64,000 nucleotides of DNA. Source: Glandiceps talaboti. Its lineage: Eukaryota > Hemichordata > Enteropneusta > Spengelidae. Positions 1,175-64,000 of the stretch are shown here, one piece after another. The stretch's first letter is position 1. Every line of letters begins with the position of its first letter. The stretch lies in the NCBI RefSeq assembly GCF_964340395.1, contig NC_135562.1:12021543-12085542 (forward strand), read 5' to 3'. A program made the translations under genes and the position numbers. The notes under the pieces are model-generated. The model saw only the letters and a list, made by a program, of their open reading frames with translations, was not told the origin of the DNA and made no database searches.

Positions 1175-1318
1175 ATTTATATACATGTTACTATTCGTGG
1201 AACTTTGGACTATGGACTGTTGAACATTTGATTTTTTTTACCTTTGATCGGCTCATAGGCTTTTAGCCTTCAAAGCTGTACATAATATGAATGAATATGA
1301 ATAGTACGCGTATACTAC

Positions 1319-1469
1319 CTTTATGTTCCCGATCAGCTTCTTTAAGACTTGGCCAATCATCAAATTTCACTCGTACATCTTCGTAATCAACTCCGGCTGC
1401 CGCAAATGTTAGTCGGCAAAGCTCAGCACGGCCACGAAATTCAAAATAAACGAGTGCGTATTTAGGCAT
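1319..1469 (-). CDS. Sigma-class glutathione S-transferase, first coding exon (partial gene)
   Basis: The exon encodes about 50 residues of the N-terminal thioredoxin-like domain of a sigma-class GST (the haematopoietic prostaglandin D synthase family). The start at 1469 gives MPKYALVYF, with Tyr8 in the catalytic position. GRAEL follows with Arg14, then YEDVRV and a Trp at position 39 in DDWPSLK, all matching the family numbering. The exon ends in AAAG before GTAGTA at 1318-1317. The reading frame is open upstream to 1688, but the Met at 1469 fits the family start. Cytosolic GSTs conjugate glutathione to electrophiles; some sigma members isomerise prostaglandin H2. The following exons are not visible, so this is a partial gene running off the left edge, or possibly an isolated exon. 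Confidence 0.78.
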
Positions 1470-1778
1470 GATATGTTTCCTGTTAACTTGTAAGCACAGA
1501 TCTGAACACCGTTGTGAAGTGCCCCTCAATAAGGTCAGCGTGACGTGTCCAATACAGTGGTCAGGGACAATAGACTCTATCAAATGGAGCGGCCCCTTTC
1601 GAATGTAAATATATGACGATATAATATAACCCTCTTCCCGTTTCCCGTTCGGAATTAAATAATTGCAAACACGGACTGCATAATCCAATGTGGTTTCACA
1701 TTATCTTTTAAAGGGCAAAACGTCGTAACGTTGTAGCCAGATCAAAGATTTTTTGTAGACTTTGGGGTGTAGAGAGCC

Positions 1779-4712: not shown

Positions 4713-7681
<2,969 letters not shown>

Positions 7682-15400: not shown

Positions 15401-18400
15401 TCCTGACTGTTTTCAAAGGCCTAATATGCGTATAGGGCAATATCCATGTAGCATGAAAGTCTCATTGGGGATTTGCTTTGACTATAGAAAGAATATGTGT
15501 GTGAGATTGTGATGTATTAAAGTACTTATTGCCTTGCCTTATTTGGGCACTAGTGGACGTTAAAGTACTTATTGCCTTACCTTATTTGGGCACTAGTGGA
15601 CATAAAGGACTTATTGCCTTGCCTTATTTGGGCACTAGTGGACATAAAGTGCTTATTGCCTTGCCTTATTTGGGCACTAGTGGACATTAAAGTACTTACT
15701 GCCTTGCCTTATTTGGGCACTAGTGGACATAAAGGACTTATTATCTTACCTTATTTGGGCACTAGTGGAACATTAAAGTACTTATTATCTTACCTTATTT
15801 GGGCACTAGTGGACATAAAGGACTTATTGCCTTGCCTTATTTGGGCACTAGTGGACATAAAGTGCTTATTGCCTTGCCTTATTTGGGCACTAGTGGACAT
15901 TAAAGTACTTACTGCCTTGCCTTATTTGGGCACTAGTGGACATTAAAGTACTTATTGCCTTGCCTTATTTGGGCACTAGTGGACATCATATTAGTGGATT
16001 GATTTCCATCACATTTATACTTTACCTTGTATAAGGACACCGCCAATCATTACTGGTATAAGTTTACAACATTTAAAGACAACCTGAGTTGGGTAATTAA
16101 GATAGCCAACTGACGTGTTGGATAATCCCATCGTAGCTACCGTCAGAAAAGCAAGGAATACATAAGTCTTCAAAGGTATTCTGAAAAAAACCACATAATG
16201 CTGAATAAGTAACCACAAAGGCTCGGTACCTGCAATAGCTTTTTACCTCATGCTAGAGGGTCAAAATAGAACAAGAAGGTCGACTTATTTTCACAAACGC
16301 CTATAGTAATATCAGATTTGATAATATAACTCTATAATGTGTGCTGTTTAATTATACTTAGTACTTAGTGAAATCACTCTAAAACTATGACAACCATGAG
16401 TACATGGACAACTAAACAATTTAATTGGTGGTTTACCCTACTTGACCTGAACAGTGATGATGACCTGGACAAGTGGCCTTTGAACAGGTCACATGACCTT
16501 TATATGTACTGATTACAATACAAGTACTGTACAGTAGGCGTGATGTCATTGTGGGATTGTTAACCAATCTAAAGCCTTTACTGTGATATCACAACTGATT
16601 GGCGAAATAATAACAATCTTTATTTATACTGGATAGTTCTTTAAGTATAGATAATTATAAACATTTGTCTCCCAAACAGTCCAGTGAGGGTCATCCCTCG
16701 TGGGCTCAGTAATGCAGGTGGAAACCAGAGTAACCGGGGAAAAATCTGCGTTGTACAGTAGAGTCAAACTAACAGACACTCTTCGTACTTACAGCGTGGT
16801 AAATTTTACTCAAACATTGAATAGGTTTGAACCCTGACTTCAGTGGTAACAGGCTAGGCAAGTGGTTTAACCACTCGGCCACCTACAACTATAGAAATGA
16901 TTTCAGAATATAAATCCGATCACAAAATAAAAGAAAACCAGTTGTGATCACAAACCTGCCTTAACAGATACAATGTCTTTTTTTTTTTTTTTTTAAAAGG
17001 TGGCAAATTGTTGAAACCATTCAAATCAAAATCTGGTGTACTGCTGGGTATTAAAACTAATTGTTTGATTTGATCTTGTTGTCTCTGTGTTTCTTTCAAT
17101 TGTCGTCCTCTGTGTTACAGGTTTGCATATGTAGAGCCGTAAATGAAAACATAAACACTTCTAATACAAGAGATGATCTTACAAAAGTAAAAGTAATTAG
17201 ACTGAACTAAACAAACGAAACAGCTATTAATGTTTAGGCCTAATAAAAAAAATTGTGTGGTTCCGATTACGCTCAATTTTAGAATAGGTGGGGTAGGTAG
17301 ATTTTTTATTTTATTATATATTTGTTTTCATGTGTGCATGTCTAGTTCATGTTTTCCATTGTTTTTCATATGGTCTCTATGTTGTTTATTTCTTCCTATC
17401 AGATGTACAGCCATTACAGATTGGAAGAACAGTTTTATATTGTCTTTTAGGTCGATGTCAGTTTCTGCATCCACTGTTTGTCGTGAGACTTCACAATTTT
17501 TGCGATTTTATTATTTTTTCTCTCGAGTGCATAAAAAAAAGTTTAGGGTCGGCAGTGAAAAACTAGGTGGGGTCGGGTAACCGGAACCAAACAATTATTT
17601 TTGAGGCCTTATACTGTGATTGTATCTCCAATAAATAGAGAATAGCTTAGAAAGTAAACTGGTGATAAGTTGTTTTTTACTTACTTGCGTTGTTTTTCAG
17701 CATGTGTTTGTATTTCTAACATACCAAATAGAGAATAGAAAGCAAACTGCACAAGAGTCAGATACCATCCATATGGTTTCATTCCCTCTAACTTGAATAT
17801 CAACTCCTAATTTTGATGAAACGAGAAACATTGACTTAGTCATTTTTTTTTTCTGAGGAGAAAATTTAGTATCAATGTCATTTAAGTGTATATGTACTGA
17901 TTGTATAAAATTCATTGTACTATGCACAAGCCATTGAGTTGAACAAAAAAATATGGAATATATACCCTGCTCATTCTACATCATGACAACGCACGTCTAT
18001 GTCACGACATTTACACCATATCAACTTAAATATTTACAAAAAATACTGTTAAAAATGTATGGATGTCACCACAATCAACATTGTTGATATTGTATTGCTG
18101 TATGCAAACTAAAGCAAACATGGCTGCTAGCACAAGTTTCAATACCACCACTGAAAGTTTTTTTATTTTTTTAATTTTTTTTTTAACTTGAGATAAAAGA
18201 GCACTGATTATATTGCAGTGTGAGAGACATTAACATAAAGTGTACAGTTAACACTTTCGTCGCCTTTGTCCAGTCTTAAAAGCACCTTTCAGTGTGAACC
18301 ATTCCGGAAGTTTATTTCAAGAATTATATGTTCAAACATGATCCTGTTTTTTTTTAATTACTCAGCTGAGTTGTAAGTGATCAAACCACTTGATTAGCCA

Positions 18401-35481: not shown

Positions 35482-36002
35482 AGGACTGGTGGCACTATCC
35501 TAGTATCAAACACATCAAAGACAATATAGTATTCCTTAATACAATCCTGTGTCTCTTTGAAAACACCACTATACACCGGTACTTGCCATTAAGGACGTAA
35601 ATGCGAAAAGCAAGAAATATTGAAAACTTGTATAAAACTGTGGTGATGGAACGTATATTACATTGGCTTTTTTTTTTTTTTTTTTACAGTAGTTGACTTT
35701 TGAGAACAAAATTTGTGTAGAGCTTACCTTGAACAGCGCCCTCTATAGATAACACTAACATCATAAGATCACTCATGAACAAAATATTTTGCCATTTTAC
35801 AACAAACACTGCTGTATCCTTTGTTTTACAATGTACTTCTTCAGTCATCATGTTTTCATCGTTATTAGTAAAATAAAGCATGGTACAGCTGTACATTAAT
35901 CATAGCAAGATTGTCTTGTGTTCTAATACAAACAAATACACCTGTATTTCAATTGACTATATCATAACCACAACTAACACTCAAATGATTGTACCTGGTT
36001 CT

Positions 36003-36386
36003 GACTAGTCTAGAAACTAGCCGTTGGGTTTGAATCTGAAGATCTCTCTCACCCCGTCTAGGTCAATGAGAAATCATAAACCAAAATTTGATGATGTATT
36101 CAAATGAGTAACCCCCCCCACCCCTCCAACTGTTAGAATGAGGTAAACACTGTATAATAAATAGTCCTGATATGCAAATATATCATATGTTACGTAACTG
36201 TCCCCGATAAATACTGACTTATCATTGGTCAGAATTCTGTGATTGGTTAACAAAGACATTATGTTAATGACTATGGATGGCTTTGTTTGAATTTAAAATT
36301 TCATATCAGGACCTCATTGAGCTGGATGTTGGGGTAAAGAGATCTTCAGATTCACACTCCATGACTAATCTTGAGACTAGGTTCTG
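36003..36386. mobile_element. Inverted-repeat element in the THOC1-NLR interval
   Basis: GACTAGTCTAG and TTTGAATCTGAAGATCTCTC at 36003-36050 face the complement at 36330-36380 (AGAGATCTTCAGATTC, CTTGAGACTAG). In copy 2 the right arm survives near 57655-57710 but the left arm is missing. Confidence 0.6.
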
Positions 36387-36410
36387 GTGTTAAACACTGA
36401 GACACACACA

Positions 36411-36420
36411 CACACACAGA

Positions 36421-36497
<77 letters not shown>

Positions 36498-36508
36498 GCG
36501 CGCGCGCA
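36411..36508. repeat. (CA)n followed by (CG)n
   Basis: About 30 CA units run into about 12 CG units at 36483-36507. Alternating purine-pyrimidine of this length and GC content favours Z-DNA. Copy 2 has only a short CA tract at the matching place (about 57757-57772). Confidence 0.95.
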
Positions 36509-36930
36509 CTTGAGAACTGGACTACCTTTAGTACCCTTATCTAATATTTGGATCCATTCTCAACATCATTAACACCCCAACACACACACACACAGTCACT
36601 CATCACCAACACCACTTTCATTCAGTTCCAAATTTACATACACAATACAATTCTCACCAAAAGATTTTAGCACACCATTCCTTTTAAAAATCAGTAGTTG
36701 ACATAGCAAAGATTATATATATATATTCACCTTGTCACTGGCAAGAAATTCAAACCACAACGAAATATTTCAACATATCCATCAAATCTTTATTTTCAAT
36801 TGATGTAAGTTAATCCAAAATTCTTTCAATTGCAAAATATAGCATTTTACATGTATATAAATGTTCAGTTGATAAAGTTGGTCAATTTCATCAAAATCAT
36901 GAATGAAAACTTCCTTTATTAAAAACAGTT

Positions 36931-37983
36931 ACAGTTGACAATTTGTATATAAGCTTCAAGTGAACAAAACTCTTCACAATGTTTCAAATTTAAACGTGAA
37001 TGGGCTCAAGTAAAAGAAACTCTACAACAAATACACACATACTACACTAAAATCTATTATACAGTAAAACTGTATCAGTTCTAAGGTCTAAATATTATGT
37101 ATGTACCAGAGATTACTTGCACTGGTACATGCACATACTAGTGGTATTTTCACTGCAGTGCAATACTGAAAACATTATTGCATACATGCATGCAAATGAT
37201 ATGCAAATGAGTACACAACATGACTTAATACGTTTCACTTGAAAAAATGACAAATGTCATATCAAAAGTAAAGTATGAATAAAAAACTTCCATCATTGTT
37301 GAAAATGTTTCTAGTTTACAATATATATATAATATTCAGAACATTTTCAGTGAATGAAATAACTAAATATACTTCAATATATGAGATGAATGGGCTCAGG
37401 TAAACAAAGTTACAAAAACTCTTTGTATACAAGAATATAGACTTTCAAAAATATATTACAGTTACAGTTGACAACTTGTATATAAGCTTCAAGTGAACAA
37501 AACTCTTCACAATGTTTCAAATTTAAATGTGAATGGGCTCAAGTAAAAGAAACTCTACAACAAATACACACATACTACACTAAAATCTATTATACAGTAA
37601 AACTATATCATATCTAAGGTCTAAGTATTATATATATGTACCAGAGATTACTTGCACTGGTACATGCACATACTAGTGGTATTTTCACTGCAGTGCAATA
37701 CTGAAAACATTATGCATACCTGTATGCAAATGAGGGTACAGCATGACTTGAATACATGTTTCCCTTGAAAAAATGACAAATGTCATATCAAAAGTAAAGT
37801 ATGAATAAAAAACTTCCATCATTGTTGAAAATGTTTCTAGTTTACAATATATATATAATATTCAGAACATTTTCAGTGAATGAAATAACTAAATATACTT
37901 CAATATATGACACGAATGGGCTCAGGTAAACAAAGTTACAAAAAATCTTTGTATACACGAATATAGACTTTCAAAAATATATT
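36931..37983. repeat. 533-bp tandem duplication (copy 1 block)
   Basis: Unit 1 starts ACAGTTGACAATTTGTATAT at 36931; unit 2 starts ACAGTTGACAACTTGTATAT at 37464. The two are collinear to CTTTCAAAAATATATT. The same pair is present in the second block (58512-59560, offset 532), so it predates the large duplication. Confidence 0.92.
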
Positions 37984-38197
37984 GGTCTGTGTAATATTTA
38001 CATAACAAATACTTCTCTGAGTATTTACAATACAGCAGAGTTCAGTACAACATGGTATAGTACAAAATATCAAATAGAGTACAATACATTGGCAGTGATG
38101 GAGTGACATCTGATAATGTCAGTATTCTCAGCACGCTAGAAAATACATTGTGTGTAGGTTTAGTACAGTACAGTAAAGTGCAATGTGTTGTATTCAT

Positions 38198-39530
38198 GTA
38201 TCTCAAATTCAGAAATGACAGTCCATGCTGAGATCTATCTTAACCTAAGTTGTAACAGTTCAGTGAGAAGGGTTGTATCTCAGATTCAGAAATGACAGTC
38301 CATGCTGAGATCTATCTTAACCTAAGTTGTAACAGTTCAGTGAGAAGGGTTGTATCTCAGATTCAGAAATGACAGTCCATGCTGAGATCTATCTTAACCT
38401 AAGTTGTAACAGTTCAGTGAGAAGGGTTGTATCTCAGATTCATAAATGACAGTCCATGCTGAGATCTATCTTAACCTAAGTTGTAACAGTTCAGTGAGAA
38501 GGGTTGTATCTCAGATTCAGAAATGACAGTCCATGCTGAGATCTATCTTAACCTAAGTTGTAACAGTTCAGTGAGAAGGGTTGTATCTCAGATTCAGAAA
38601 TGACAGTCCATGCTGAGATCTATCTTAATCTAAGTTGTAACAGTTCAGTGAGATGGGTTGTATCCCAGATTCATAAATGACAGTCCATGCTGAGATCTAT
38701 CTTAACCTAAGTTGTAACAGTTCAGTGAGAAGGGTTGTATCTCAGATTCATAAATGACAGTCCATGCTGAGATCTATCTTAACCTAAGTTGTAACAGTTC
38801 AGTGAGAAGGGTTTATCTCAGATTTAGAAATGACAGTCCATGCTGAGATCTATCTTAACCTAAGTTGTAACAGTTCAGTGAGAAGGGTTGTATCTCAGAT
38901 TCATAAATGATAGTCCATGCTGAGATCTATCTTAACCTAAGTTGTAACAGTTCAGTGAGAAGGGTAGTATCTCAGATTCAGAAATGACAGTCCATGCTGA
39001 GATCTATCTTAACCTAAGTTGTAACAGTTCAGTGAGAAGGGTGGTATCTCAGATAGATTTATAAATGACAGTCCATGCTGAGATCTATCTTAACCTAAGT
39101 TGTAACAGTTCAGTGAGAAGGGTTCTATCTCAGATTCATAAATGACAGTCCATGCTGAGGTCTATCTTGATCTAAGTTGTAACAGTTCAGTGAGAAGGGT
39201 GGTATCTCAGATAGATTTATAAATGACAGTCCATGCTGAGATCTATCTTAATCTAAGTTGTAACAGTTCAGTGAGAAAGGTTGTATCTCAGATTCAGAAA
39301 TGACAGTCCATGCTGAGATCTATCTTAATCTAAGTTGTAACAGTTCAGTGAGAAAGGTTGTATCTCAGATTCAGAAATGACAGTCCATGCTGAGATCTAT
39401 CTTAATCTAAGTTGTAACAGTTCAGTGAGAAAGGTTGTATCTCAGATTCAGAAATGACAGTCCATGCTGAGATATATCTTGATATCTTAACCTAAGTTGT
39501 AACAGTTCAGTGACATGGGTTGTATTACAA
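38198..39530. repeat. 77-bp minisatellite, about 17 units (copy 1 block)
   Basis: Unit core GACAGTCCATGCTGAGATCT, then TAACCTAAGTTGTAACAGTT, then CAGTGAGAAGGGTTGTATCT. Most units are 77 bp; a few are longer (insert AGATAGATTT). The corresponding array in the second block has about 14 units. Confidence 0.95.
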
Positions 39531-39640
39531 TCCCCATCATCACTGATATCATTCTGATGTCCAGCCTAAAATGTAACAGTTCAATGAGAAAGTTAAATTC
39601 ACAGTCTACAGATATTAAACCTATACATGTAACTTACATG

Positions 39641-40780
39641 TAAGTTGTAACAGTTCTATGATAGTGGTTGTATCACACTGGTTAACAGTTCTGTGACAGT
39701 GGTTGTATCACACTGGTTAACAGTTCTGTGACAGTGGTTGTATCACACTGGTTAACAGTTCTGTGATAGTGATTGTATTACACTGGTTAACAGTTCTGTG
39801 ACAGTGGTTGTATTAACACTGGTTAACAGTTCTGTGACAGTGGTTGTATCACATTGGTTAACAGTTCTGTGACAGTGGTTGTATTAACACTGGTTAACAG
39901 TTCTGTGACAGTGATTGTATTACACTGGTTAACAGTTCTGTGACAGTGGTTGTATTAACACTGGTTAACAGTTCTGTGACAGTGGTTGTATCACATTGGT
40001 TAACAGTTCTGTGACAGTGGTTGTATTAACACTGGTTAACAGTTCTGTGACAGTGGTTGTATCACACTGGTTAACAGTTCTGTGACAGTGGTTGTATTAA
40101 CACTGGTTAACAGTTCTGTGACAATGGTTGTATCACACTGGTTAACAGTTCAGTGACAGTGGTTGTATCACATTGGTTAACAGTTCTGTGATAGTGATTG
40201 TATTACACTGGTTAACAGTTCTATGATAGTGGTTGTATTACACTAGTTAACAGTTCTATGACAGTGGTTGTATTACACTGGTTAACAGTTCTGTGATAGT
40301 GGTTGTATCACACTGATTAACAGTTCTATGATAGTGGTTGTATCAACACTGGTTAACAGTTCAGTGACAGTGGTTGTATCAACACTGGTTAACAGTTCTG
40401 TGACAGTGGTTATATCACACTGGTTAACAGTTCTGTGACAGTGGTTGTATCACATTGGTTAACAGTTTTATGACAGTGGTTGTATTACACTGGTTAACAG
40501 TTCTGTGACAGTGGTTGTATCACACTGGTTAACAGTTTTATGATAGTGGTTGTATCACACTGGTTAACAGTTCTGTGACAGTGGTTGTATTAACACTGGT
40601 TAACAGTTCAGTGACAGTGGTTGTATCACATTGGTTAACAGTTCTGTGACAGTTTTTGTATCACACTGGTTAACAGTTTTATGATAGTGGTTGTATTACA
40701 CTTGTTTAACAGTTCTGTGACAGTGGTTGTATTATACTGGTTAACAGTTCTATGACTGTGGTTGTATCAACACTGGTTAT
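39641..40780. repeat. 35/36-bp minisatellite, about 32 units (copy 1 block)
   Basis: Unit GGTTAACAGTTCTGTGACAG, then TGGTTGTATCACACT, with an alternative TTAACACT ending. It matches the second half of the 77-bp unit next door (GTAACAGTTCAGTGAGAAGG, then GTTGTATCTCA), so the two arrays share an origin. It lies downstream of the NLR stop codon. Confidence 0.95.
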
Positions 40781-41772
40781 CATTACATACATAAATAGTG
40801 ACCTTTGACCTGACATAATTAAAGTTGAATGCCAATTTATGGAAACTCATTTCATGGTTTCACATCGCATAATTTTCACTCTATTGCCAAGAAACGTGAA
40901 ATAGCATTTTTTCATCTTCAGTGGAACACCACTGGTCTTAGCAGACATGAATATTAATTACACACACACTGAATATTCATGACTATTTATGTGAAGTAAA
41001 TAAACCCTCAAGAGTCAATGAATATTCAGTGTACATCTAATAAATATCCATCTTTTACAAAAAAAACCATGATGCAATGGTGTCCCACTGAAAGAACATT
41101 AGAGGCAAAAAATTTGGTGTTTCTTAGCACCAAGTGAAATTATTTTGTGATGTAAAATCATGAAATGACTCTCCAGAACCCAAAGTTTATAAAAATACCT
41201 TCATCTCCTAGATTGGTGATTTCCCCTTTAATGAAAGGATATTTTACATAATGACGTTCAAAGCATGAAATAAACCTATTAAGTTGACATCATAACAAAT
41301 TGACATGTATACTAAATACAGACTTTATCTTATACTTTTACTTATTACATGTAAACTGTGTAAAGAACAATTAAAATTATTAATATCATGTACAACAACA
41401 AGCTAATCAACAATGTTTGAAAAATTAATATTCATTTATGCTAATTACATCAAAATGTACTAGACTGGTATTCATTTTTAACTCTGGCCAAACATATTAT
41501 ACTATAAACTGATAAAATTATTGTTAAGGTCAAAGGTCAACTATTAGAATGTAATGTGTCAGGTTTAACATTCACTGTGTTTGGTACTGATGTCCTCTAC
41601 ACTGAATATTGAGTACCTGTTCAGTTCAGTTTAAGGACATAACTACCAATATTGTTTTAACTATGTCAATATTAGGTGATACATCTTACACTATAAACTA
41701 ATAACATTAATTAAAGGTCAACTATTAGAATGTAATGTATCAGGTTTAATATTTGCTGTGTTTGGCATTGTT
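40781..41772. other. 3' flank of the NLR gene
   Basis: Unique, A+T-rich sequence between the minisatellites and the NLR stop codon. A short direct repeat, GGTCAACTATTAGAATGTAATG, occurs at about 41536 and 41714. The same layout occurs in the second block. Confidence 0.5.
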
Positions 41773-44700
41773 CTATACACTGAACTGAACTTTATGTTTG
41801 TATCTAATCTTGTCATCATACAAATCAAGGTATGGAGTCACATTGTATTCATAAGACCAATCTGTTGGTTTCTGTTGACTAGCAATGATATCCTGAATCT
41901 TAGTAACTTTCTCATCAATGATATCATCACTCTTAGTATAGAATGTGATTGACTTCAGTGTACACTGATTTGTCTCTATTGATCTGATTACAGATGGAAA
42001 TAAACATTGGACTGCACCTAGTATGTAAGGATGTACAGATGAATGGAACGAGTACTTGTACTTAGAATTCCTACTACACAGTGTTAAATACTGAATAATC
42101 TTATTCTGTTGCAATGCTTCTTTGATAGGATCCCACATCTCACTATTATACTTATAGAAATCAACACTGAGAGACTTCACACATCTGTTATGTTTTATAA
42201 ATTTACATACACTATGAACTGCTGTACTTGGCAATCTTCCAATCCCTATCTCAGTCAATGTAGTGTTGGTAGATAACACATCCAATATGTCATTGTCAGT
42301 GTCAAATACACTATTACTGGTCAGTGTAAAGGATTTCAAACTATCACTTGGACACTTTAAAGATTCAGTAAGTCTTGGTATTAAACTCTTGATTAGACTT
42401 TCAGTCAAATCATATAGATATAATTCAAATGTTTCAGTAGTTTGACATTTCTGTATAAATTCACACAACATTTCTACATTATTTCCAGATAGTGTACAGT
42501 CTCTAAATTGTAGGTTCACTTTGTTAGGACCACTCTGTATTAAACTATCAGAAACAATTTCAGACATTTGACATGTATGATGTGAATATTGCGTTACATT
42601 AAATGTGAAACTTTGTATTGACTTGTTCTTACAAAGAGTGTTCTCTAGGTCCTGTATTTTATTCCTTAATGCTTCATGATCATCATCATGGCCCCTTCTA
42701 CAGTCTATATAGAATGAAAAACTACAAAGAGTAGGGCATTCTACCAACATTATGATCTTATCAAATACATTTACTATGGTTTTCTGTAAGTAAATTAAAC
42801 TTAACATTACTGATGAGAGTGTGATATTGCCTTGCTTTAATTCATCTGATAACATTGTAAGGCGAGGTAGAGTGGTATCATACAAAACTAATGTATCTAT
42901 AACTCTAGTGGTTCTATGTTTATTCTGAAGTTTCAAGAAATGTAAAATACAATCAAAACTACAGTCTTTTGAAGTTATTCTGATCAATGGGTAATTAACT
43001 TTTTGTAGAATTCTATTGTCTGAATTATGTTTAACATATACCAACATTTTTGATATTGATTGAACGTCAATAGATGACAAACAATCTTCTCCCCATTGAC
43101 ATTCATACAAACAAAGTAAACATATACCCCAAATAGATGATGATGCATCTTTCGCTCTCCTAAAGATAGATTTGAAGTTACTTATCTTTTTAATGTTATT
43201 GCTAAATGCCTGAAAGAGATAACAAGCTCCTTTTTTCCCTACAAGCCCAGCAAGAAATTGTAGTACGGTCAAGTTCTTCTTTTTGCTTCTTAGGAGTTTC
43301 TCAAGATATTTGACATCACCATCTTCTAATACATAAGCAAGATGCATAGCTGAGAAAAATTCAAGCCATGTCTTGTGATAGAAGAAGTAGAGTTTTTCTG
43401 TCTTTGTTCTTGATGGTCCATCATCTCTTACTAGCAAACCTAACTCTAATGAAATATCTGATGAAATATCTGCCTTGGTGAACATAGATTCACCTTTCAT
43501 GTACAGATTCCATGCATCGGCAGCTAGCTTATCTCTTGCATTAATGACATCCTGTGGTAATTTACCATCTTGTAATGCTATATTATTCTTAACACAGTAT
43601 CTTTTAAGAATACAATCTAGTATCTCAGAGTAAAGGCCTGTTAATTTTGTGGGAAATGTGAATGCATTTTTATCCTGATTATCTTCCCACAGAATACACA
43701 GGAATGATACATGCAATGGGTTGACCAAGAGATCCTTTGTAAAAACCTCTTTGTTAACTTTCTTTTGTCTCTTTATTTCCTTAATGAGCCTTTCACTAAT
43801 ACTCTTGTCTTCAAATGTTTGAAAGTATTTATTCACATAGTCTGTCATTCGCTTATCTGTGAATCCCTCAACAGTGAAATGTAAATCACAGTTACCTAGA
43901 TACCTGTCACATTTGTGTGGTCTAGTAGTAACAATAGTTGTACACCAAAAGAATCTTTTACCAAAAATGAGGGCTGGGATGTCAGTTTGTTGTAATCTGG
44001 TTTCATCAATTTCGTCAAGACCATCAAGCAGGAACAAGACTGATTTCTCATTTCTTAAAATGAATGTTTCAAGAGAATCTTTTGAAAGATGTCGATCTGT
44101 AGGTACTAGCTGATTAAATACTTCATCTATAATGTTATCTTTTGTGACATGTCTCATTTCTAGATAGAAAACTAGTTTATATTTGTCAAGTCTACCTTGA
44201 GCCCAATCATATGCTAGTTTTCCACATAAAGTTGATTTACCTATAGCTGGTGCACCTTCTATAGTGATACGATTTGTACTATTTGGTCCTTCAGTAACAT
44301 TTTCAAAGATTTTGTGGATATCTTCAAATGCTTGTCCAACTTGCAACTTGCCTCTTTTAGCATGCTTTACTTTTAGCTGTGTGTAAACTTTTTCCAGGTT
44401 CAGGTTACACCTTTCATTCCATGGAATTGGTTTGTGGTTCCTGAAGTGTTTTATGTATGTTTTCTGCAGCAATGGAATTAACACCGTCTCAACCGCCGAC
44501 AACTTGTCTGAAAAAATAAAGTATGAAAAATTCCCTATTACTTTTTTTTGTTTCATCAGTGATTCACAATACTAGACAAGTGATTGATAAATCAAATTTG
44601 ATAAAAGTAGCCTGGGATGTATATTGTAATTAAAGTTTTAGAAAAACATAGGCAATTGCTTGAAAATTATGATTCAGCAATTCAAGGTGAAACATGGTGA

Positions 44701-45754: not shown

Positions 45755-45932
45755 TAAAGTAATGAATCAAACAGCATCGGTACACCAAAATAGCTTAAGT
45801 TTAATTATTTTTGTAATACATACCTCTCACGAGACAATCCTGTACCATTGATTGCTGTGGAATGGGTGAACGTCCTTGCAATACATTAGGTTGATCCCCA
45901 GTAGTTGATGGACGATGCGAATAGCTCTGTTT

Positions 45933-45970
<38 letters not shown>

Positions 45971-48472
45971 GACGTACTAAGAAGTGTGGGGTAATCGCTT
46001 GTGATGTACTATGTCCATGTGAACCACTTGAAAAATGACCTGCATCTTGACCTTGGTGAGAACCATGACTCTCAATGTGTGGTATCTGACCAACTGAACT
46101 GTGTACTGTATCACATGGTTGGCGTATGACTGTTTTTTGTGGTGTGTGATGGGATGATGTGTGAACTGCACTGTTGGATGGACTGCTAAAAGGTGGCACC
46201 TGGTACAACTGATTCCCAGATTGCTTTGGATTACCTGAAGATGGCACTTTGTAGGAATGACTGTACTGTGGTGGTAGTTGGTGCTGGGGGACTGATGTAT
46301 GGTGGTGGTGAGCTGCTGGTTGATGTACCTGTACATGAGGAAGAAACCCTGAAAATAATGTTTGGTTATCATGAACCAATGGTATTTGATGTGAGATAAT
46401 TGATGTAGTTTGGCAAACTGCAGGTCGATGTCCTTGTACATCTTGAAGTGAATGTGCTGAAGGGGATGATTGGTAAGAATACCCTATACTTTGTGATAGT
46501 TCTTGGTTTGATGGCACAGTGACTGTATCATGCCAAATATTAGGCCCATAGCTTCTAGATGGCACTGGGTAAGACTGGTTCCCATGTAGAGATGTGTGAC
46601 TGCCTGATGTTGGCACTGTATGAAAATCAGTATGAGATGGGTGACTTGAAACTGGCACCCAATAGGAGTGATTCTCAGATTGTGTTTGCTGTGATTGCAA
46701 TTGATGCCTGAACATTGATGTCTGTTGGCAAGCTGCTGGTCTTTGTAAATGTTGGCCATGGGATGGATGATGTGTATATGATAATTGGCAAGTAGGACTA
46801 TTGGTTGGTATGGGGTATTGGATGACTGATGTAGTTTGACAAACTGCTGGTCTTAGTGGACTTTGAAATGAATGCCCTGAAGGTGGTGCTTCGTAAGAAT
46901 AATCCTGACTTCGCTGTATTGGTAATTCCTGGTTTGATGGTATTGTATTGTATGCAATATTAGATGAAGGGCCTATAACTGAAGTTTGGTAAGAATGACT
47001 TTCCTGTAGAGGTGTGTGTCTAAATGATGTTGGAACTGTATGATGGACATCATGGTCTATAGGTGGCCCAGTTTGTGGTGTTTGACTAACTGAAGTCTGT
47101 ACTGTATGTCCATGTTCAGTATTATATGGATACACTGTAGATGGCTCTTGGTGAAAATGAATATGTTGTGTTGGCATTGGTTGTTTATCCTGACTCATTG
47201 ATGTATGGTCAGTAGTCACAGGAACTTGCAGAGTCTGAAGTGAATATTTCTGTGATGGCACTGGATGAACTTGATTCTGAGGTGTTTGTATTTGATGAAC
47301 TGAAGTCTGTATAGTATTATCTCCATGTACACCATGATATGGATGGACTGAAGTTGAGGGTGTTTGAATGTAGTTTACTTGTCTATAAGTGTCAATAGAT
47401 TGGTCATGTGGAGTTCCTGGTTCTTGAAATTGACCTAATAAAATAGGACACAAAGACTTATGGTAAATGATACAACTTTTATTTGGATAGTTGATTCATT
47501 GGTGTATACCTTTATAATAGTATTGAAATTGGTGATGATCTCACATGTCCGATATTTTACATATCATACATGTCATCAAACTATGACTGCATATGCTCTC
47601 ACTATATTAATATATCATGTGGTAGGATCACATCACATCACATCACATCACATGTTCTATACTATGATTCTCTTCTGTAACTGTGATCATATCATCACTT
47701 TGGAAATGTTGAATATTCGAGTACAATCAGGCATGTCGTCATATATAAATGCAATGCTGGTTTGTAAGAACTGGAGCTGTCAGAGTACATGACGGGGAAA
47801 TGTTCATAAAATTACCTTGATTAGATCTTGTCTCTTTCTGTAAATATTTCTGTACAAGATGCTGTCGTCCAACTTTACACAACAGTGTCTCTAACAGCGT
47901 TGTATTGGATTCACTAATAAGCGCCATATTATACAGCTTTGTGAATAAATTACCAGGAATTTTCATCCTGTCTAAAGCACCCCATGGCACTTTTTCATCA
48001 CAGAGGATTTTCATTTCTTCAAATTCAGCTATAAGATAACAATTGAGAGGGTTGTGATTCTTCAGATACTTGTGAATCAGTCAGTGTCTGTTAACAATAC
48101 ATAAGTCCCTAAGCAGCGATGATTTATCTTATATACTTAAATCTTCTTTGACTGCCGTTTATAAACAGAATTCAAAGAATTCAATGTGGTACTGATTGGT
48201 CATGTGATGTTACTCTTCTGTGATTGATCATAAGTTATTGTACAATTTACATCCATACAGTGATTCAATCATCAAGACCCTAAAGACACTGTCTGATATA
48301 TTAACAACACCCATAATCATATGCTCGTTTCTTCACCTTTATTGATATACTCACCATCTGTGATTTCTTGTGACAGCACTACAAGAAGTTCCGGGAATGA
48401 ATCAAACTTCAGTCGTTTATGTTCAGGTTCCCTTTCATTGTCAGCATCACCACTTACTCCTTGGCCTGCCAT
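41773..48472 (-). CDS. NLR-type innate immune receptor: DED, Q/H-rich linker, NACHT, LRR-like
   Basis: Five phase-1 coding exons on the minus strand: 48355-48472, 47816-48028, 45824-47434, 45431-45568, 41773-44507. They total 4815 nt, or 1604 aa. Residues 25-106 form a death-effector-like fold (FPELLVVLSQEI, EFEEMKILCDEKVPWGALDR, LFTKLYNMALIS, LLETLLCKVGRQHLVQKYL). Residues 111-694 are a His/Gln/Ser/Thr/Pro-rich linker with poly-Q. The NACHT module has Walker A GAPAIGKST at about 778, Walker B LFLLDGLDEID at about 851 and TTRPHKC at about 887, then a helical region. About 1340-1560 form LRR-like repeats. NLRs sense microbial or danger signals and oligomerise through NACHT; a DED would recruit caspase-8-like partners (inference). 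A 5' UTR junction is possible at 48507. A second paralogue begins at the right edge. Confidence 0.9.
45239..45305. repeat. (TATCTG)n hexanucleotide repeat in the last NLR intron
   Basis: About ten TATCTG units with CCTGTA variants at both ends. Confidence 0.9.
45705..45752. repeat. (TAA)n microsatellite in NLR intron 3
   Basis: About 15 AAT/TAA units between the linker exon and the short exon at 45431-45568. Confidence 0.95.
46203..47042 (-). repeat. 140-residue (420-bp) duplication inside the NLR linker exon
   Basis: Two consecutive 420-bp units (47042-46623 and 46622-46203) encode collinear blocks. Both begin HTVPTS, then carry GPxxN/PN, VPSNQEL or IPSNQEL, YSYxxxPSxHS, RPAVCQTTSVI or RPAVCQTTSII, then QxPAA plus TS. 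Each unit also contains a shorter internal echo (RPAACQQTSMFRHQ; QPAAHHHHTSVPQHQ). The units are strongly diverged, so the duplication is old. Confidence 0.8.
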
Positions 48473-52065: not shown

Positions 52066-54179
<2,114 letters not shown>

Positions 54180-55244
54180 AATTTTGAAAATGATAGAAAT
54201 ATTCTGAGCTATTATTACATTGCAGCAAAATGTGCCGCACGACGGCATTAATTTCGAGCCCTGTCCCTCATGAAACCTCAACGACTTCAGCCATGAAATT
54301 TAAGACACATGCTGCTCCGACGTAACAAAGGGGGTGGGGGTGGGGGTAGACGGCATTGTTCTGCCAAAGTTTCCAACAAGTGGGGACAAAGGCCCCTTGG
54401 TTGCATAAAGTGGGGTCATTTGACAGGGAGTGGGGTCAATTATTATTGAAATATTCATATATATTACCCCAGACCACTATAGAGAAACTGTGGTCTTAGG
54501 TATTCCATTACGTATAGACAATTACCTAACAACATAAAAAAATTCCATTCACAATAACAGTTCCCAGTAAGCTGTTTTTTTGAAAATTGTGTACTACACA
54601 TTACACCTTAGAAAAAGAAGGCAATTAAGATTATGTCATTTTAAGTCATTTCTACTGAATATATTATATATTGTTTAGAAAGATTGGACAGCCAGGTAGT
54701 CACAATCTTTAATCTGAATATCAATGAATAGCATGCAGTGCTTAAATTTATAATTCCCTTTTTTCAGACAAGGACAAAGAACAATTTCAAAATAAGTCAC
54801 AGGAACATATGATTGAATAAAAACTTTGAGAAATCCTAATCTTGTAACCACTTGTTTCATTTGTAGAACTGTTAGTACACTGCTGTGTTTTAATATCATT
54901 TCCTCTTCAAATTCATGACGAAGTTAAGAAAAACCAACATTTTGAAGAAAAAAATCCCTGACTTTAAAAAGTACCAAATGTGAACGAAAAACTTACAAAT
55001 AGTACAGTCAAACAAACTTTGAAATAATTTATTTTTTATTAATTACGTTACTATTTGTGTATCATGATTTGGTCCTGTTATATCAAATGACAGCATTAGT
55101 TACATACTGTAAACTTGACACTAGAAGCCGACATTATAAGGTGTCCTTGAAACTCAGAAATCGTGAACTAAAACTATCCACAACGTCAAAGTTAGGATGC
55201 TTTGTAAATACCACTGTAATTATTTTCTGATTTGCACAACAAGT

Positions 55245-56463: not shown

Positions 56464-57976
56464 CTTGAATTGGTAGAATCTGGTTCTCCACACATCACTA
56501 ATTACAATACTATTGACATTCACGTTGATGAAATGCAAAGTACATACCCAACAAAAACGTGTGTTCTAGAAGACTTGTTTATTCCATTGTATTTATTGGT
56601 AACTCAATCGTGTCTTGTTGTTGGAAATATTATGCTATTAAAAGTTGGTCCAGTGACTGTAAAGTTATTGGTAGAAGTCGACATAGCCGTTTGCTGAGGA
56701 ATAATATTCAGGGTCTGAAATTCTCGAGAGGGTGTATGTGTGTGTGTGGGGGGGGGGAGGGGCAGCACCCCCTCCCATACCCTCAAACTCCCTGTGATGA
56801 CAAGACAGTTATATTAACGACAGGGGTTAATGCAGTATTTGTTACTACTCTCATTTCATGAGGATCATTATAGAAGGAGAAACGGTTTTCAGAATGGATG
56901 GGGCTGGCTGGGGAAGGTTTAAATAACAAATTATCAAAATCTGTAGTTCTGAGATTTTCTTTCTTGCGATCTACAAATTATGTTAATTTCCCTTCATGAG
57001 TGATAAGGAACCCCATCTCATATAAGATTCATACAAATAGTTGCATTTAGAATACAATCTTTAATAAATTTCATCCTTGAAAGACAAAGTTTTAAAATTA
57101 AAAAGATCCAGAACAAATGTAAACATGGAAGACATTAAAGAAACCCAAAATTATGGAATATTTAGAAGTGATAGTTGACTGGTGGCGCTATTCTAGTATC
57201 AAACACATCAAAGACAATACAGTGTTCCTTAATACAATCCTGTGTCTCTTCAAAGTCAAATAAATCCTTCAGAAACCTCACTGTACACCAGTACTTGCCG
57301 TTAAAGACATGTGAAAAGCAAGAAATATTGAAAACTTGTATAAAACTGTGGCGACGGAACATATATTGCATTGATTTTTTTTTTATAGTAGTTGACTTTT
57401 GAAAACAAAACCAAAATTTGATGATGTATTCAAATGAGTAACACCCCCCCCCCCCCTCAAATGGTTAGAATGAGGTAAACACTGTATAAGTATTGTTCTG
57501 ATAGTATACGCAAACGTTCCATATTTGGACATCATGTAATAAACTTTTACTTCAGAATTCTGTGATTGATTAACAACAAAGGTATGATGTTAATGACTAT
57601 GGATGGCTTTGTTTGAATTTAAAATTTCGTCTCAGGATCTCATTGAGCTGGTTGTTGGGGTAAAGAGAGATCTTCAGATTCACACTCAATGGCTAATCTT
57701 TAGACTAGGTTCTGATGTTTAAACACAGAAACATACACAGACTCTTCCTCCCCCACCACACACACACACACGCTTGAGAACTGGGCTACCATTGGTACAC
57801 ACTTGTCTAATATTTGGATCCTTTCCCAACACAATCATCATTAACACCCCCCCCCCCCCTTACACACACACACGATCATCACCAACACCACTTTCATTCA
57901 GTTCCAAATTTACTCATACAATGAAATTTAGCACACCATTCCTTTTAAAAATCAGTAGTTGACACAGCAAAGATTA

Positions 57977-58312
<336 letters not shown>

Positions 58313-58511: not shown

Positions 58512-59560
58512 ACAGATGACAAGTTGTATATAAGCTTCAAGTGAACAAAACTCTCCACAATATTTCAAATTTAAACGTGAATGGGCTCAAGTAAAAGAAA
58601 CTCTACAACAAATACACACATACTACACTAAAATCTAATATACAGTAAAACTGTATCAGTTCTAAGGTCTAAATATTATGTATGTACCAGAGATTACTTG
58701 CACTGGTACATGCACATACTAGTGGTATTTTCACTGCAGTGCAATACTGAAAACATTATTGCATACATGCATGCAAATGATATGCAAATGAGTACACAAC
58801 ATGACTTAATACGTTTCACTTGAAAAAATGACAAATGTCATATCAAAAGTAAAGTATGAATAAAAAACTTCCATCATTGTTGAAAATGTTTCTAGTTTAC
58901 AATATATATATAATATTCAGAACATTTTCAGTGAATGAAATAACTAAATATACTTCAATATATGAGATGAATGGGCTCAGGTAAACAAAGTTACAAAAAC
59001 TCTTTGTATACAAGAATATAGACTTTCAAAAATATATTACAGTTACAGTTGACAACTTGTATATAAGCTTCAAGTGAACAAAACTCTTCACAATGTTTCA
59101 AATTTAAATGTGAATGGGCTCAAGTAAAAGAAACTCTACAACAAATACACACATACTACACTAAAATCTATTATACAGTAAAACTATATCATATCTAAGG
59201 TCTAAGTATTATATATATGTACCAGAGATTACTTGCACTGGTACATGCACATACTAGTGGTATTTTCACTGCAGTGCAATACTGAAAACATTATGCATAC
59301 CTGTATGCAAATGAGGGTACAGCATGACTTGAATACATGTTTCCCTTGAAAAAATGACAAATGTCATATCAAAAGTAAAGTATGAATAAAAAACTTCCAT
59401 CATTGTTGAAAATGTTTCTAGTTTACAATATATATATAATATTCAGAACATTTTCAGTGAATGAAATAACTAAATATACTTCAATATATGACACGAATGG
59501 GCTCAGGTAAACAAAGTTACAAAAAATCTTTGTATACACGAATATAGACTTTCAAAAATA
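58512..59560. repeat. 532-bp tandem duplication (copy 2 block)
   Basis: Units start at 58512 and 59044. Counterpart of 36931-37983. Unit 2 of this block is nearly identical to unit 2 of the first block, not to its own neighbour, so there was no recent homogenisation within a block. Confidence 0.9.
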
Positions 59561-59776
59561 TATTGGTCTGTGTAATATTTACATAACAAATACTTCTCTG
59601 AGTATTTACAATACAGCAGAGTTCAGTACAACATGGTATAGTACAAAATATCAAATAGAGTACAATACATTGGCAGTGATGGAGTGACATCTGATAATGT
59701 CAGTATTCTCAGCACGCTAGAAAATACATTGTGTGTAGGTTTAGTACAGTACAGTAAAGTGCAATGTGTTGTATTC

Positions 59777-60873
59777 ATGTATCTCAAATTCAGAAATGAC
59801 AGTCCATGCTGAGATCTATCTTAACCTAAGTTGTAACAGTTCAGTGAGAAGGGTTGTATCTCAGATTCAGAAATGACAGTCCATGCTGAGATCTATCTTA
59901 ACCTAAGTTGTAACAGTTCAGTGAGAAGGGTTGTATCTCAGATTCAGAAATGACAGTCCATGCTGAGATCTATCTTAACCTAAGTTGTAACAGTTCAGTG
60001 AGAAGGGTTGTATCTCAGATTCAGAAATGACAGTCCATGCTGAGATCTATCTTAACCTAAGTTGTAACAGTTCAGTGAGAAGGGTTGTATCTCAGATTCA
60101 GAAATGACAGTCCATGCTGAGATCTATCTTAACCTAAGTTGTAACAGTTCAGTGAGAAGGGTTGTATCTCAGATTCAGAAATGACAGTCCATGCTGAGAT
60201 CTATCTTAATCTAAGTTGTAACAGTTCAGTGAGATGGGTTGTATCCCAGATTCATAAATGACAGTCCATGCTGAGATCTATCTTAACCTAAGTTGTAACA
60301 GTTCAGTGAGAAGGGTTGTATCTCAGATTCATAAATGACAGTCCATGCTGAGATCTATCTTAACCTAAGTTGTAACAGTTCAGTGAGAAGGGTTTATCTC
60401 AGATTTAGAAATGACAGTCCATGCTGAGATCTATCTTAACCTAAGTTGTAACAGTTCAGTGAGAAGGGTTGTATCTCAGATTCATAAATGATAGTCCATG
60501 CTGAGATCTATCTTAATCTAAGTTGTAACAGTTCAGTGAGAAGGGTGGTATCTCAGATAGATTTATAAATGACAGTCCATGCTGAGATCTATCTTAATCT
60601 AAGTTGTAACAGTTCAGTGAGAAAGGTTGTATCTCAGATTCAGAAATGACAGTCCATGCTGAGATCTATCTTAATCTAAGTTGTAACAGTTCAGTGAGAA
60701 AGGTTGTATCTCAGATTCAGAAATGACAGTCCATGCTGAGATCTATCTTAATCTAAGTTGTAACAGTTCAGTGAGAAAGGTTGTATCTCAGATTCAGAAA
60801 TGACAGTCCATGCTGAGATATATCTTGATATCTTAACCTAAGTTGTAACAGTTCAGTGACATGGGTTGTATTA
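59777..60873. repeat. 77-bp minisatellite, about 14 units (copy 2 block)
   Basis: Same unit as 38198-39530. The first nine or ten units align with those of copy 1. A block of about three units in the middle, including those starting GGTAGTATCTC and GGTTCTATCTC, is missing. Confidence 0.95.
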
Positions 60874-60987
60874 CAATCCCCATCATCACTGATATCATTC
60901 TGATGTCCAGCCTAAAATGTAACAGTTCAATGAGAAAGTTAAATTCACAGTCTACAGATATTAAACCTATACATGTAACTTACATGT

Positions 60988-62125
60988 AAGTTGTAACAGT
61001 TCTATGATAGTGGTTGTATCACACTGGTTAACAGTTCTGTGACAGTGGTTGTATCACACTGGTTAACAGTTCTGTGACAGTGGTTGTATCACACTGGTTA
61101 ACAGTTCTGTGATAGTGATTGTATTACACTGGTTAACAGTTCTGTGACAGTGGTTGTATTAACACTGGTTAACAGTTCTGTGACAGTGGTTGTATCACAT
61201 TGGTTAACAGTTCTGTGACAGTGGTTGTATTAACACTGGTTAACAGTTCTGTGACAGTGATTGTATTACACTGGTTAACAGTTCTGTGACAGTGGTTGTA
61301 TTAACACTGGTTAACAGTTCTGTGACAGTGGTTGTATCACATTGGTTAACAGTTCTGTGACAGTGGTTGTATTAACACTGGTTAACAGTTCTGTGACAGT
61401 GGTTGTATCACACTGGTTAACAGTTCTGTGACAGTGGTTGTATTAACACTGGTTAACAGTTCTGTGACAATGGTTGTATCACACAGGTTAACAGTTCAGT
61501 GACAGTGGTTGTATCACATTGGTTAACAGTTCTGTGATAGTGATTGTATTACACTGGTTAACAGTTCTATGATAGTGGTTGTATTACACTAGTTAACAGT
61601 TCTATGACAGTGGTTGTATTACACTGGTTAACAGTTCTGTGATAGTGGTTGTATCACACTGATTAACAGTTCTATGATAGTGGTTGTATCAACACTGGTT
61701 AACAGTTCAGTGACAGTGGTTGTATCAACACTGGTTAACAGTTCTGTGACAGTGGTTGTATCACACTGGTTAACAGTTCTGTGACAGTGGTTGTATCACA
61801 TTGGTTAACAGTTTTATGACAGTGGTTGTATTACACTGGTTAACAGTTCTGTGACAGTGGTTGTATCACACTGGTTAACAGTTTTATGATAGTGGTTGTA
61901 TCACACTGGTTAACAGTTCTGTGACAGTGGTTGTATTAACACTGGTTAACAGTTCAGTGACAGTGGTTGTATCACATTGGTTAACAGTTCTGTGACAGTT
62001 TTTGTATCACACTGGTTAACAGTTTTATGATAGTGGTTGTATTACACTTGTTTAACAGTTCTGTGACAGTGGTTGTATTATACTGGTTAACAGTTCTATG
62101 ACTGTGGTTGTATCAACACTGGTTA
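60988..62125. repeat. 35/36-bp minisatellite (copy 2 block)
   Basis: Unit-by-unit match to 39641-40780 with only scattered single-base changes, for example CACTGG to CACAGG near 61485. Unlike the 77-bp array, no unit was gained or lost. Confidence 0.95.
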
Positions 62126-63131
62126 TCATTACATACATAAATAGTGACCTTTGACCTGACATAATTAAAGTTGAATGCCAATTTATGGAAACTCATTTCA
62201 TGGTTTCACATCGCATAATTTTCACTCTATTGCCAAGAAACGTGAAATAGCATTTTTTCATCTTCAGTGGAACACCACTGGTCTTAGCAGACATGAATAT
62301 TAATTACACACACACTGAATATTCATGACTATTTATGTGAAGTAAATAAACCCTCAAGAGTCAATGAATATTCAGTGTACATCTAATAAATATCCATCTT
62401 TTACAAAAAAAAACATGATGCAATGGTGTCCCACTGAAAGAACATTAGAGGCAAAAAATTTGGTGTTTTTTAGCACCAAGTGAAATTATTTTGTGATGTA
62501 AAATCATGAAATGACTCTCCAGAACCCAAAGTTTATAAAAATACCTTCATCTCCTAGATTGGTGATTTCCCCTTTAATGAAAGGATATTTTACATAATGA
62601 CGTTCAAAGCATGAAATAAACCTATTAAGTTGACATCATAACAAATTGACATGTATACTAAATACAGACTTTATCTTATACTTTTACTTATTACATGTAA
62701 ACTGTGTAAAGAACAATTAAAATTATTAATATCATGTACAACAACAAGCTAATCAACAATGTTTGAAAAATTAATATTCATTTATGCTAATTACATCAAA
62801 ATGTACTAGACTGGTATTCATTTTTAACTCTGGCCATTTATTATTTTTATAGTATTATACTATAAACTGATAAAATTATTGTTAAGGTCAAAGGTCAACT
62901 ATTAGAATGTAATGTGTCAGGTTTAACATTCACTGTGTTTGGTAGTGATGTCCTTTACACTGAATGTTGAGTACCTGTTCAGTTCAGTGTAAAGGACATG
63001 ACTACCAATATTGTTTTAACTATGTCAATATTAGGTGATACATCTTACACTATAAACTAATAACATTAATTAAAGGTCAACTATTAGAATGTAATGTATC
63101 AGGTTTAATATTTGCTGTGTTTGGCATTGTT

Positions 63132-64000
63132 CTATACACTGAACTGAACTTTATGTTTGTATCTAATCTTGTCATCATACAAATCAAGGTATGGAGTCAC
63201 ATTGTATTCATAAGACCAATCTGTTGGTTTCTGTTGACTAGCAATGATATCCTGAATCTTAGTAACTTTCTCATCAATGATATCATCACTCTTAGTATAG
63301 AATGTGATTGACTTCAGTGTACACTGATTTGTCTCTACTGATCTGATAACAGATGGAAATAAACATTGGACTGCACCTAGTATCCAAGGATGTACAGATG
63401 AATGGTACAAGTACTTGTACTTCCTACTAGACAGTGTGAAATACTGAATAATCTTATTCTGTTCCAATGCTTCTTTGATAGGATCCCACATCTCACTATT
63501 ATACTCAATGAATTCAACACTGAGAGACTTCACACATCTGTTATGTTTTATAAATTTACATACACTATGAACTGCTGTACTTGGCAATCTTCCAATCCCT
63601 ATCTCAGTCAATGTAGTGTTGGTAGATAACACATCCAATATGTCATTGTCAGTGTCAAATACACTATTACTGGTCAGTGTAAAGGATTTCAAACTATCAC
63701 TTGGACACTTTAAAGATTCAGTAAGTTTTGGTATTAAACTCTTGATTAGACTTTCAGAGAAACCATCTACATATAATTCAAATGTTTCAGTAGTTTGACA
63801 TTTCTCAATAAATTCACACAACATTTCTACATTATTTCCAGATAGTGTACAGTCTCTAAATTGTAGCTTCACTTTGTTAGGACCACTCTGTATTAAACTA
63901 TCAGAAACAATTTCAGACATTTGACATGTATGATGTGAATATTGCGTTACATTAAATGTGAAACTTTGTATTGACTTGTTCTTACAAAGAGTGTTCTCTA
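63132..64000 (-). CDS. Second NLR paralogue, C-terminal part, cut by the window edge
   Basis: The reading frame is open from the right edge (first full codon at 63998) to a TAG at 63134-63132, about 289 codons. It matches the last 290 residues of the 41773-48472 NLR (LRR-like region and tail). Differences cluster: FELYLYDLTES versus FELYVDGFSES, SVDFYKYNSE versus SVEFIEYNSE, YLTLCSRNSKYKYSFH versus YFTLSSRKYKYLYH (two codons lost), and PYILG versus PWILG. There is no stop or frameshift, so the paralogue looks functional as far as it is visible. DED, linker and NACHT exons would lie to the right. Confidence 0.92.
   Translation of the reverse strand, partial: ENTLCKNKSIQSFTFNVTQYSHHTCQMSEIVSDSLIQSGPNKVKLQFRDCTLSGNNVEMLCEFIEKCQTTETFELYVDGFSESLIKSLIPKLTESLKCPSDSLKSFTLTSNSVFDTDNDILDVLSTNTTLTEIGIGRLPSTAVHSVCKFIKHNRCVKSLSVEFIEYNSEMWDPIKEALEQNKIIQYFTLSSRKYKYLYHSSVHPWILGAVQCLFPSVIRSVETNQCTLKSITFYTKSDDIIDEKVTKIQDIIASQQKPTDWSYEYNVTPYLDLYDDKIRYKHKVQFSV

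Follow-up and report, generated by a model that had tools for sequence, protein, structure and literature searches.

In two tandem NLR genes of the acorn worm Glandiceps talaboti, here called A and B, the coding DNA of the last leucine-rich repeats (LRRs) is a mosaic. Long stretches without any difference are interrupted by short patches of amino acid replacements, and most of the replaced residues lie on the strands and following loops of the predicted LRR model. The explanation that we consider best, and hold with moderate confidence, is that ectopic gene conversion homogenises the C-terminal LRR cassette, and that selection probably keeps the predicted recognition rim diverse. The two copies lie 21.3-21.6 kb apart as a tandem duplication, in a stretch of 64,000 nucleotides of contig NC_135562.1, which was analysed as a whole and is called the window below.

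Copy A and, as far as it is visible, copy B are members of a DED-NACHT-LRR receptor family (Table 1). Copy B is cut at the end of the window, so that just its last 288 codons can be seen. The open reading frame of copy A contains the NACHT NTPase domain of an NLR (PF05729, E 2.8e-23, 83 bits at a cut-off of 26.7). In tblastn comparisons, its homology to other proteins begins at 44508, after an acceptor-like TTTTTTCAG, and the true start of the exon is probably near this position. The protein search gave 24 matches; acorn-worm proteins occupy the first 11 places, with ten from Ptychodera and a single one from Glandiceps. The Glandiceps protein, P0001 (LOC144445252), carries a DED and a NACHT domain, in a layout like that of the copy A locus. 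A DED is also detected at 47754-48029 on the minus strand, which is the strand of A (PF01335, E 1e-11), and its exon was located by tblastn with P0001, P0002, P0005, P0008 and P0009 as queries. Splicing of this exon to the NACHT exon is predicted from the DED-NACHT layout of P0001. The His/Gln-rich open reading frame between the two exons had no Pfam match at E values up to 1; comparison with the repetitive linker of P0001 suggests that it is probably a linker exon. In P0001, the region from DED to NACHT contains a long HQPLPVSTGS-type repeat, and the window has a different His/Gln-rich frame in this place. This linker may be subject to fast evolution.

Table 1. Position of the receptor gene copies, their variable patches and the duplicated flanking DNA in the window.
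Feature	Position	Strand	Basis or remark
Copy A ORF, NACHT and LRR exon	41773..44571	-	932 codons, from one stop to the next
C-terminal LRR segment of A, residues 724-932	41776..42402	-	79-89% identity to P0001
Variable patch 1 in A, residues 706-733	42373..42456	-	A/B alignment
Variable patch 2 in A, residues 804-865	41977..42162	-	A/B alignment; contains two-codon indel
His/Gln-rich ORF between DED and NACHT exons	45801..47495	-	ORF
DED exon, 5' of copy A, approximate limits	47814..48029	-	PF01335 and tblastn
Copy B, last 288 codons and stop	63132..64000	-	alignment, ORF
Variable patch 1 in B	63726..63809	-	A/B alignment
Variable patch 2 in B	63336..63515	-	A/B alignment; two codons shorter
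Homogenised non-coding tract 3' of A	37000..41399	.	versus about 58581-62745
Diverged outer duplication flank, A side	35484..36726	.	three pieces, 81-82% identity to 57177-57987 pieces, collinear
Diverged flank counterpart, copy B	57177..57987	.	collinear with A-side pieces
77-bp minisatellite, A side	38197..39525	.	17.1 copies
35-bp minisatellite, A side	39648..40779	.	32.1 copies
77-bp minisatellite adjoining copy B	59778..60871	.	14.1 copies
35-bp minisatellite adjoining copy B	60994..62125	.	32.1 copies

The assignment of LRRs to copy A is structural only. LRR families are absent from the Pfam matches of the 932-residue frame at E values up to 1, and neither B30.2 nor WD40 repeats are among its six Pfam matches. 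The AlphaFold2 model (12 sequences, mean pLDDT 76.9, residues 835-846 below 50) has regular strand-loop-helix units, eight of them between residues 654 and 899. By fold, the top PDB matches of the model are NLRC4, NOD2 and NLRP3, all with low TM scores; the best Foldseek match, NLRC4 (4kxf), has an E value of 1.2e-24 and a TM score of only 0.38.

Elsewhere in the window, a GST N-terminal domain matches exactly at the cut-off (1263-1700, minus strand, PF02798, E 0.00046), and a weak FAM167 match lies below its own cut-off (7301-7681, plus strand, PF11652, E 0.0023). A tandem array at 15516-15986, with a period near 43 bp, maintains an open frame of 130 codons. An inverted repeat of about 400 bp (52098-52501 and 53774-54180, 97.5% identity) has tetranucleotide arrays at its arms and may be what is left of a mobile element. 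A search of Rfam gave zero matches at gathering scores.

Codon alignment of 41773-42647 in A with 63132-64000 in B, over 288 comparable codons, bears out the substitutions counted in the preliminary description: there are 22, of which 20 are non-synonymous and 2 synonymous, together with an in-frame two-codon indel (the six bases 42062-42067 of A are missing from B). The short clusters and the runs of identity of up to about 200 bp that it described are also found. Twelve of the 21 spacings between neighbouring substitutions are 12 bp or less, where 5.6 are expected (p 0.0006), and the widest spacing is 214 bp. All substitutions fall within 89 of the 288 codons, in patches whose limits were drawn after inspection, and the remaining 199 codons have none.

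The ratio of 20:2 had been set against a neutral expectation of about 3:1. Depending on the transition bias, 18-27% of random changes that create no stop would be synonymous in this sequence, and the probability of at most 2 synonymous changes among 22 is 0.22, 0.13, 0.07 and 0.04 at kappa values of 0.5, 1, 2 and 3. The count stands, but the excess is borderline. For this one pair, dN/dS is 2.5 by the Nei-Gojobori method, and with P between 0.04 and 0.22 according to the mutation model, the ratio is not decisive by itself. We have therefore rejected the single-pair dN/dS, which is not significant, as a proof of selection. The clustering of the changes, and their contrast to the surrounding DNA, are stronger evidence.

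The surrounding DNA is itself a patchwork. Downstream of A, the 4.2-kb tract at 37000-41399 has 6 mismatches to the copy B side in 4165 aligned bases (0.14%, or 99.86% identity). Between this tract and the gene, positions 41400-41650 form a non-coding patch with 8 mismatches in 251 bases (3.2%), and 41651-41772 has none in 122. Left of the 4.2-kb tract, identity is 93% (17 mismatches in 238 bases) and then 81-82% in pieces that could be repeat copies. Because the left flank is 7% to 19% diverged beside a tract diverged by 0.14%, the duplicated stretch is, judging from its sequence, not of a single age. Either an old duplication has had its 3' end and downstream DNA recently homogenised, or pieces of different age have been assembled, and either would mean exchange between copies. 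Both minisatellites are located within the most homogenised tract, and they are a possible hotspot of recombination by conversion. The 77- and 35-bp arrays (38197-40779, 59778-62125) have the motif TAACAGTTCWGTGA in common, as seen by eye in their consensus units. The 64-kb window holds no donor of the patches: among private 13-mers, 0 of 185 for A and 2 of 179 for B (overlapping each other) occur elsewhere.

The mixed ages bear on the first option of the preliminary description, a recent duplication followed by rapid diversification through point mutation, under strong positive selection and without conversion. In its favour, as in that of the explanation preferred here, differences affect 20 of 693 non-synonymous sites and 16 of 4709 pooled synonymous and non-coding sites, which amounts to about nine times the odds (p about 1e-9, in a test that assumes independent sites, an assumption that a mosaic violates); for synonymous sites taken by themselves (2 of 171), there is no difference from non-coding sites (p 0.11). 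However, a divergence of 0.14% predicts about 1 replacement rather than 20, so that an extreme rate would be required, the left flank speaks against a single age, and the pattern of P0001 described below suggests exchange. We regard a history without conversion as highly improbable. It is also conceivable that an assembly error has set the two haplotypes of one gene side by side as A and B, as the minisatellites are near-identical. This is judged very unlikely, because the three collinear flank pieces, at 81-82% identity, are far apart for alleles, unless they are repeat copies.

In comparison with P0001, copy A has an unlike middle and a like end. Identity is 0.62 in the NACHT domain, 0.24 in residues 561-660, and then 0.89 (724-820), 0.79 (821-904) and 0.89 (905-932). 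Seven of the 11 acorn-worm proteins were compared with A in this way, six of them from Ptychodera, of which P0003 and P0009 do not cover the end completely. The Ptychodera proteins are 0.50-0.56 identical to A in the NACHT domain and 0.14-0.28 in residues 561-660, and the four that reach the C-terminal end have values of 0.30-0.34 (724-820) and 0.16-0.31 (821-904). In view of this drop from NACHT to residues 724-904, the C-terminus is not strongly conserved in itself. Intrinsic conservation is therefore insufficient as the sole cause of its 79-89% identity between A and P0001, when the Ptychodera proteins have 0.16-0.34 there and 0.50-0.56 in the NACHT domain. Part of the high identity in 724-932 may nevertheless be constraint, because in Ptychodera, too, residues 724-820 are better kept than 561-660. 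Exchange is thus the best explanation of the near-identical end of A, B and P0001, with a possible contribution from constraint.

At the 20 positions that distinguish A from B, P0001 has the residue of B in 8 cases, that of A in 3, and neither in 9. A change in one lineage would account for most of these 11 shared states, so that they are no proof of shuffling by themselves. A protein search with residues 1240-1545 of P0001 retrieved P0001 itself as the sole match among 1278 candidates, and a search with copy B gave zero matches among 416. The conversion suggested in the preliminary description is well supported by the mosaic divergence of A and B, together with this homologue of unlike middle and near-identical end. 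Its picture of a young array finds no support in a left flank that is only 81-82% identical in three pieces. Homogenised tracts amid otherwise diverged copies, as in a concertedly evolving family, are present in the A/B DNA and in the P0001 protein; the evidence for concerted evolution comprises this one DNA pair and this one protein.

The changes had been said to sit directly after LRR strands. On the model of A, many of the A/B clusters indeed lie at or directly after predicted strands. The zone made up of a strand and the following beta-alpha loop holds 15 of the 20 A/B sites and 108 of the 262 residues in 643-904 (Fisher 0.0016, circular shift 0.027), which would place the variable residues mostly on the predicted LRR surface. 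By class, the enrichment holds for the beta-alpha loops (9 of 20, p 0.008), but not for strands alone (6, p 0.22); 5 sites are on helices, and none is in an alpha-beta loop. On the strands, L719V and L829F appear to match the buried leucine pattern. Four of the helix changes are mild (Q707E, R733K, Q821E, I865V), and the fifth, Y849W, is not.

The same zone is enriched in other comparisons. Where P0001 differs from a residue that A and B share, 31 of 53 sites in 643-904 are in strand plus loop (Fisher 0.0036, shift 0.034), as are 13 of 15 in 729-904 (Fisher 5e-5, shift 0.04), an interval whose start was chosen post hoc: a start at 724 brings in four P0001 differences (725-728) at the start of a helix, outside the zone. 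The zone tests exclude 905-932, with three P0001 differences (914, 921, 927). In the Ptychodera pair P0002/P0004, variation affects 34 of 73 columns in the zone and 34 of 134 outside it (p 0.0017); when counting starts at residue 709, the numbers are 27 of 60 versus 29 of 121 (p 0.0037). For the trio that includes P0007, they are 46 of 73 versus 56 of 134 (p 0.003; from 709, p 0.07), but the trio is not among our main evidence, as columns missing from the incomplete P0007 sequence were scored as variable. In 643-932, 9 of the 20 A/B differences fall on a residue at which P0001 differs as well (p 0.017). In the shared block, 724-932, there is no such excess (3 of 13, p 0.19), and a residue-by-residue coincidence of the two kinds of variation is unsupported there. 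A nearness test of A/B against P0001 differences gave 0.66 (643-932) and 0.47 (724-932).

The location at the rim does not decide between selection and a passive origin of the patches, because loops tolerate change, too. The patches may have been left unreached by incomplete homogenisation, and would then preserve older, near-neutral divergence at tolerant loops under relaxed constraint, with no positive selection. Several numbers agree with such leftovers: dN in the patches is 9.3%, near the flank divergence of 7-12%, and the 2 changes at 52 synonymous patch sites fit a neutral divergence of 7% (P 0.28). Moreover, the non-coding patch with 3.2% divergence indicates that patches arise without protein selection. 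However, 2 synonymous changes hardly fit a neutral divergence of 12% (P 0.04), and are too few for one of 18.5% (P 0.002). Altogether, we consider passive leftovers somewhat unlikely, though with an appreciable chance of being right. Relaxed leftovers do fit a neutral divergence of 7%, and positive selection is likely, but unproven. The diversifying selection claimed in the preliminary description is plausible for the patches from this one DNA pair, even if their dN/dS does not reach significance.

The spectrum of the A/B substitutions is odd. C-G swaps make up 7 of the 22, whereas the old flank has 4 among 94 (p 0.0007), an excess that was noticed post hoc among six classes. A-T and C-G swaps together account for 14 of 22 between 41979-42514 in A and 63338-63867 in B, and for 23 of 94 in the old non-coding flank (p 0.0008). 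The C-G excess could point to a targeted mutator that hypermutates the LRR rim, but selection on amino acids can also skew a spectrum, and a deaminase-type WRC/GYW context is not enriched at the variable C/G sites (5 of 9 in A, p 0.10; 4 of 13 in B, p 0.58). A mutator is in our view extremely unlikely.

In the mechanism that we prefer, ectopic gene conversion or unequal crossing-over between copies would recently have homogenised the 3' end of the gene, with the last LRRs, and the same homogenisation would have taken in about 4-5 kb of downstream DNA. The residues at strand exits and in strand-helix loops, which form the rim most plausibly in contact with a ligand or partner, differ between copies. 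These differences could persist because new variants are favoured, because conversion events that erase the rim are selected against, or both. The mosaic, the unlike middle and like end of the homologue, and the location of the differences on the predicted model are observations; that conversion is at work, that selection maintains the differences and that the rim serves recognition is what we infer from them. More broadly, and only tentatively, acorn worms may possess an LRR-based, plant-like hypervariable NLR system, in which a C-terminal LRR cassette is converted across paralogues whose neighbouring LRRs are about a quarter identical, strand-exit loops are kept or made diverse, and minisatellites are possible hotspots. 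If true, this would be an independent animal counterpart of the highly variable NLRs of plants, in an invertebrate deuterostome. It would also single out specific residues for tests of ligand or partner binding.

Within the searched collection, literature on Glandiceps, hemichordate or acorn-worm NLRs did not include this family by title or abstract. NOD-like receptors are mentioned once in the available part of a paper on acorn-worm immunity (PMC10210618). According to the available part of a report on two coral genomes, tandem duplicates there rarely undergo gene conversion (PMC10236652). The Glandiceps protein P0001, like the copy A locus, has DED and NACHT domains and the same C-terminal LRR framework, but it is only 24% identical to A in residues 561-660 and has its own residues at many rim positions.

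Among known systems, the NLR-B30.2 family of zebrafish is similarly an animal NLR family shaped by gene conversion. In the sections of the 2016 zebrafish study considered here, conversion acts differently by domain, positive selection is found in the presumed recognition module, and B30.2 rather than the LRRs, which are not particularly variable, is the module proposed to recognise pathogens (PMC4852459). In the Glandiceps genes, by contrast, the LRR is the variable part, and copy A lacks a B30.2 match in its frame. The highly variable NLRs of plants carry their variation on the LRR surface, as stated in the part of a 2021 study that was available (PMC8226289). Their variability extends across alleles of many ecotypes, whereas here it concerns copies within one assembly, and the gene is an animal NACHT gene with a DED exon. 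The NWD family of Podospora, with het-d and het-e, combines concerted evolution with positively selected surface positions, as described in the available portion of a 2007 report (PMC1805685). Like the acorn-worm genes, it encodes NACHT proteins in which a repeat domain evolves in concert, and in Podospora a few surface positions of this domain are under diversifying selection. Podospora exchanges WD40 repeats as units; the repeats of the acorn-worm genes are LRRs.
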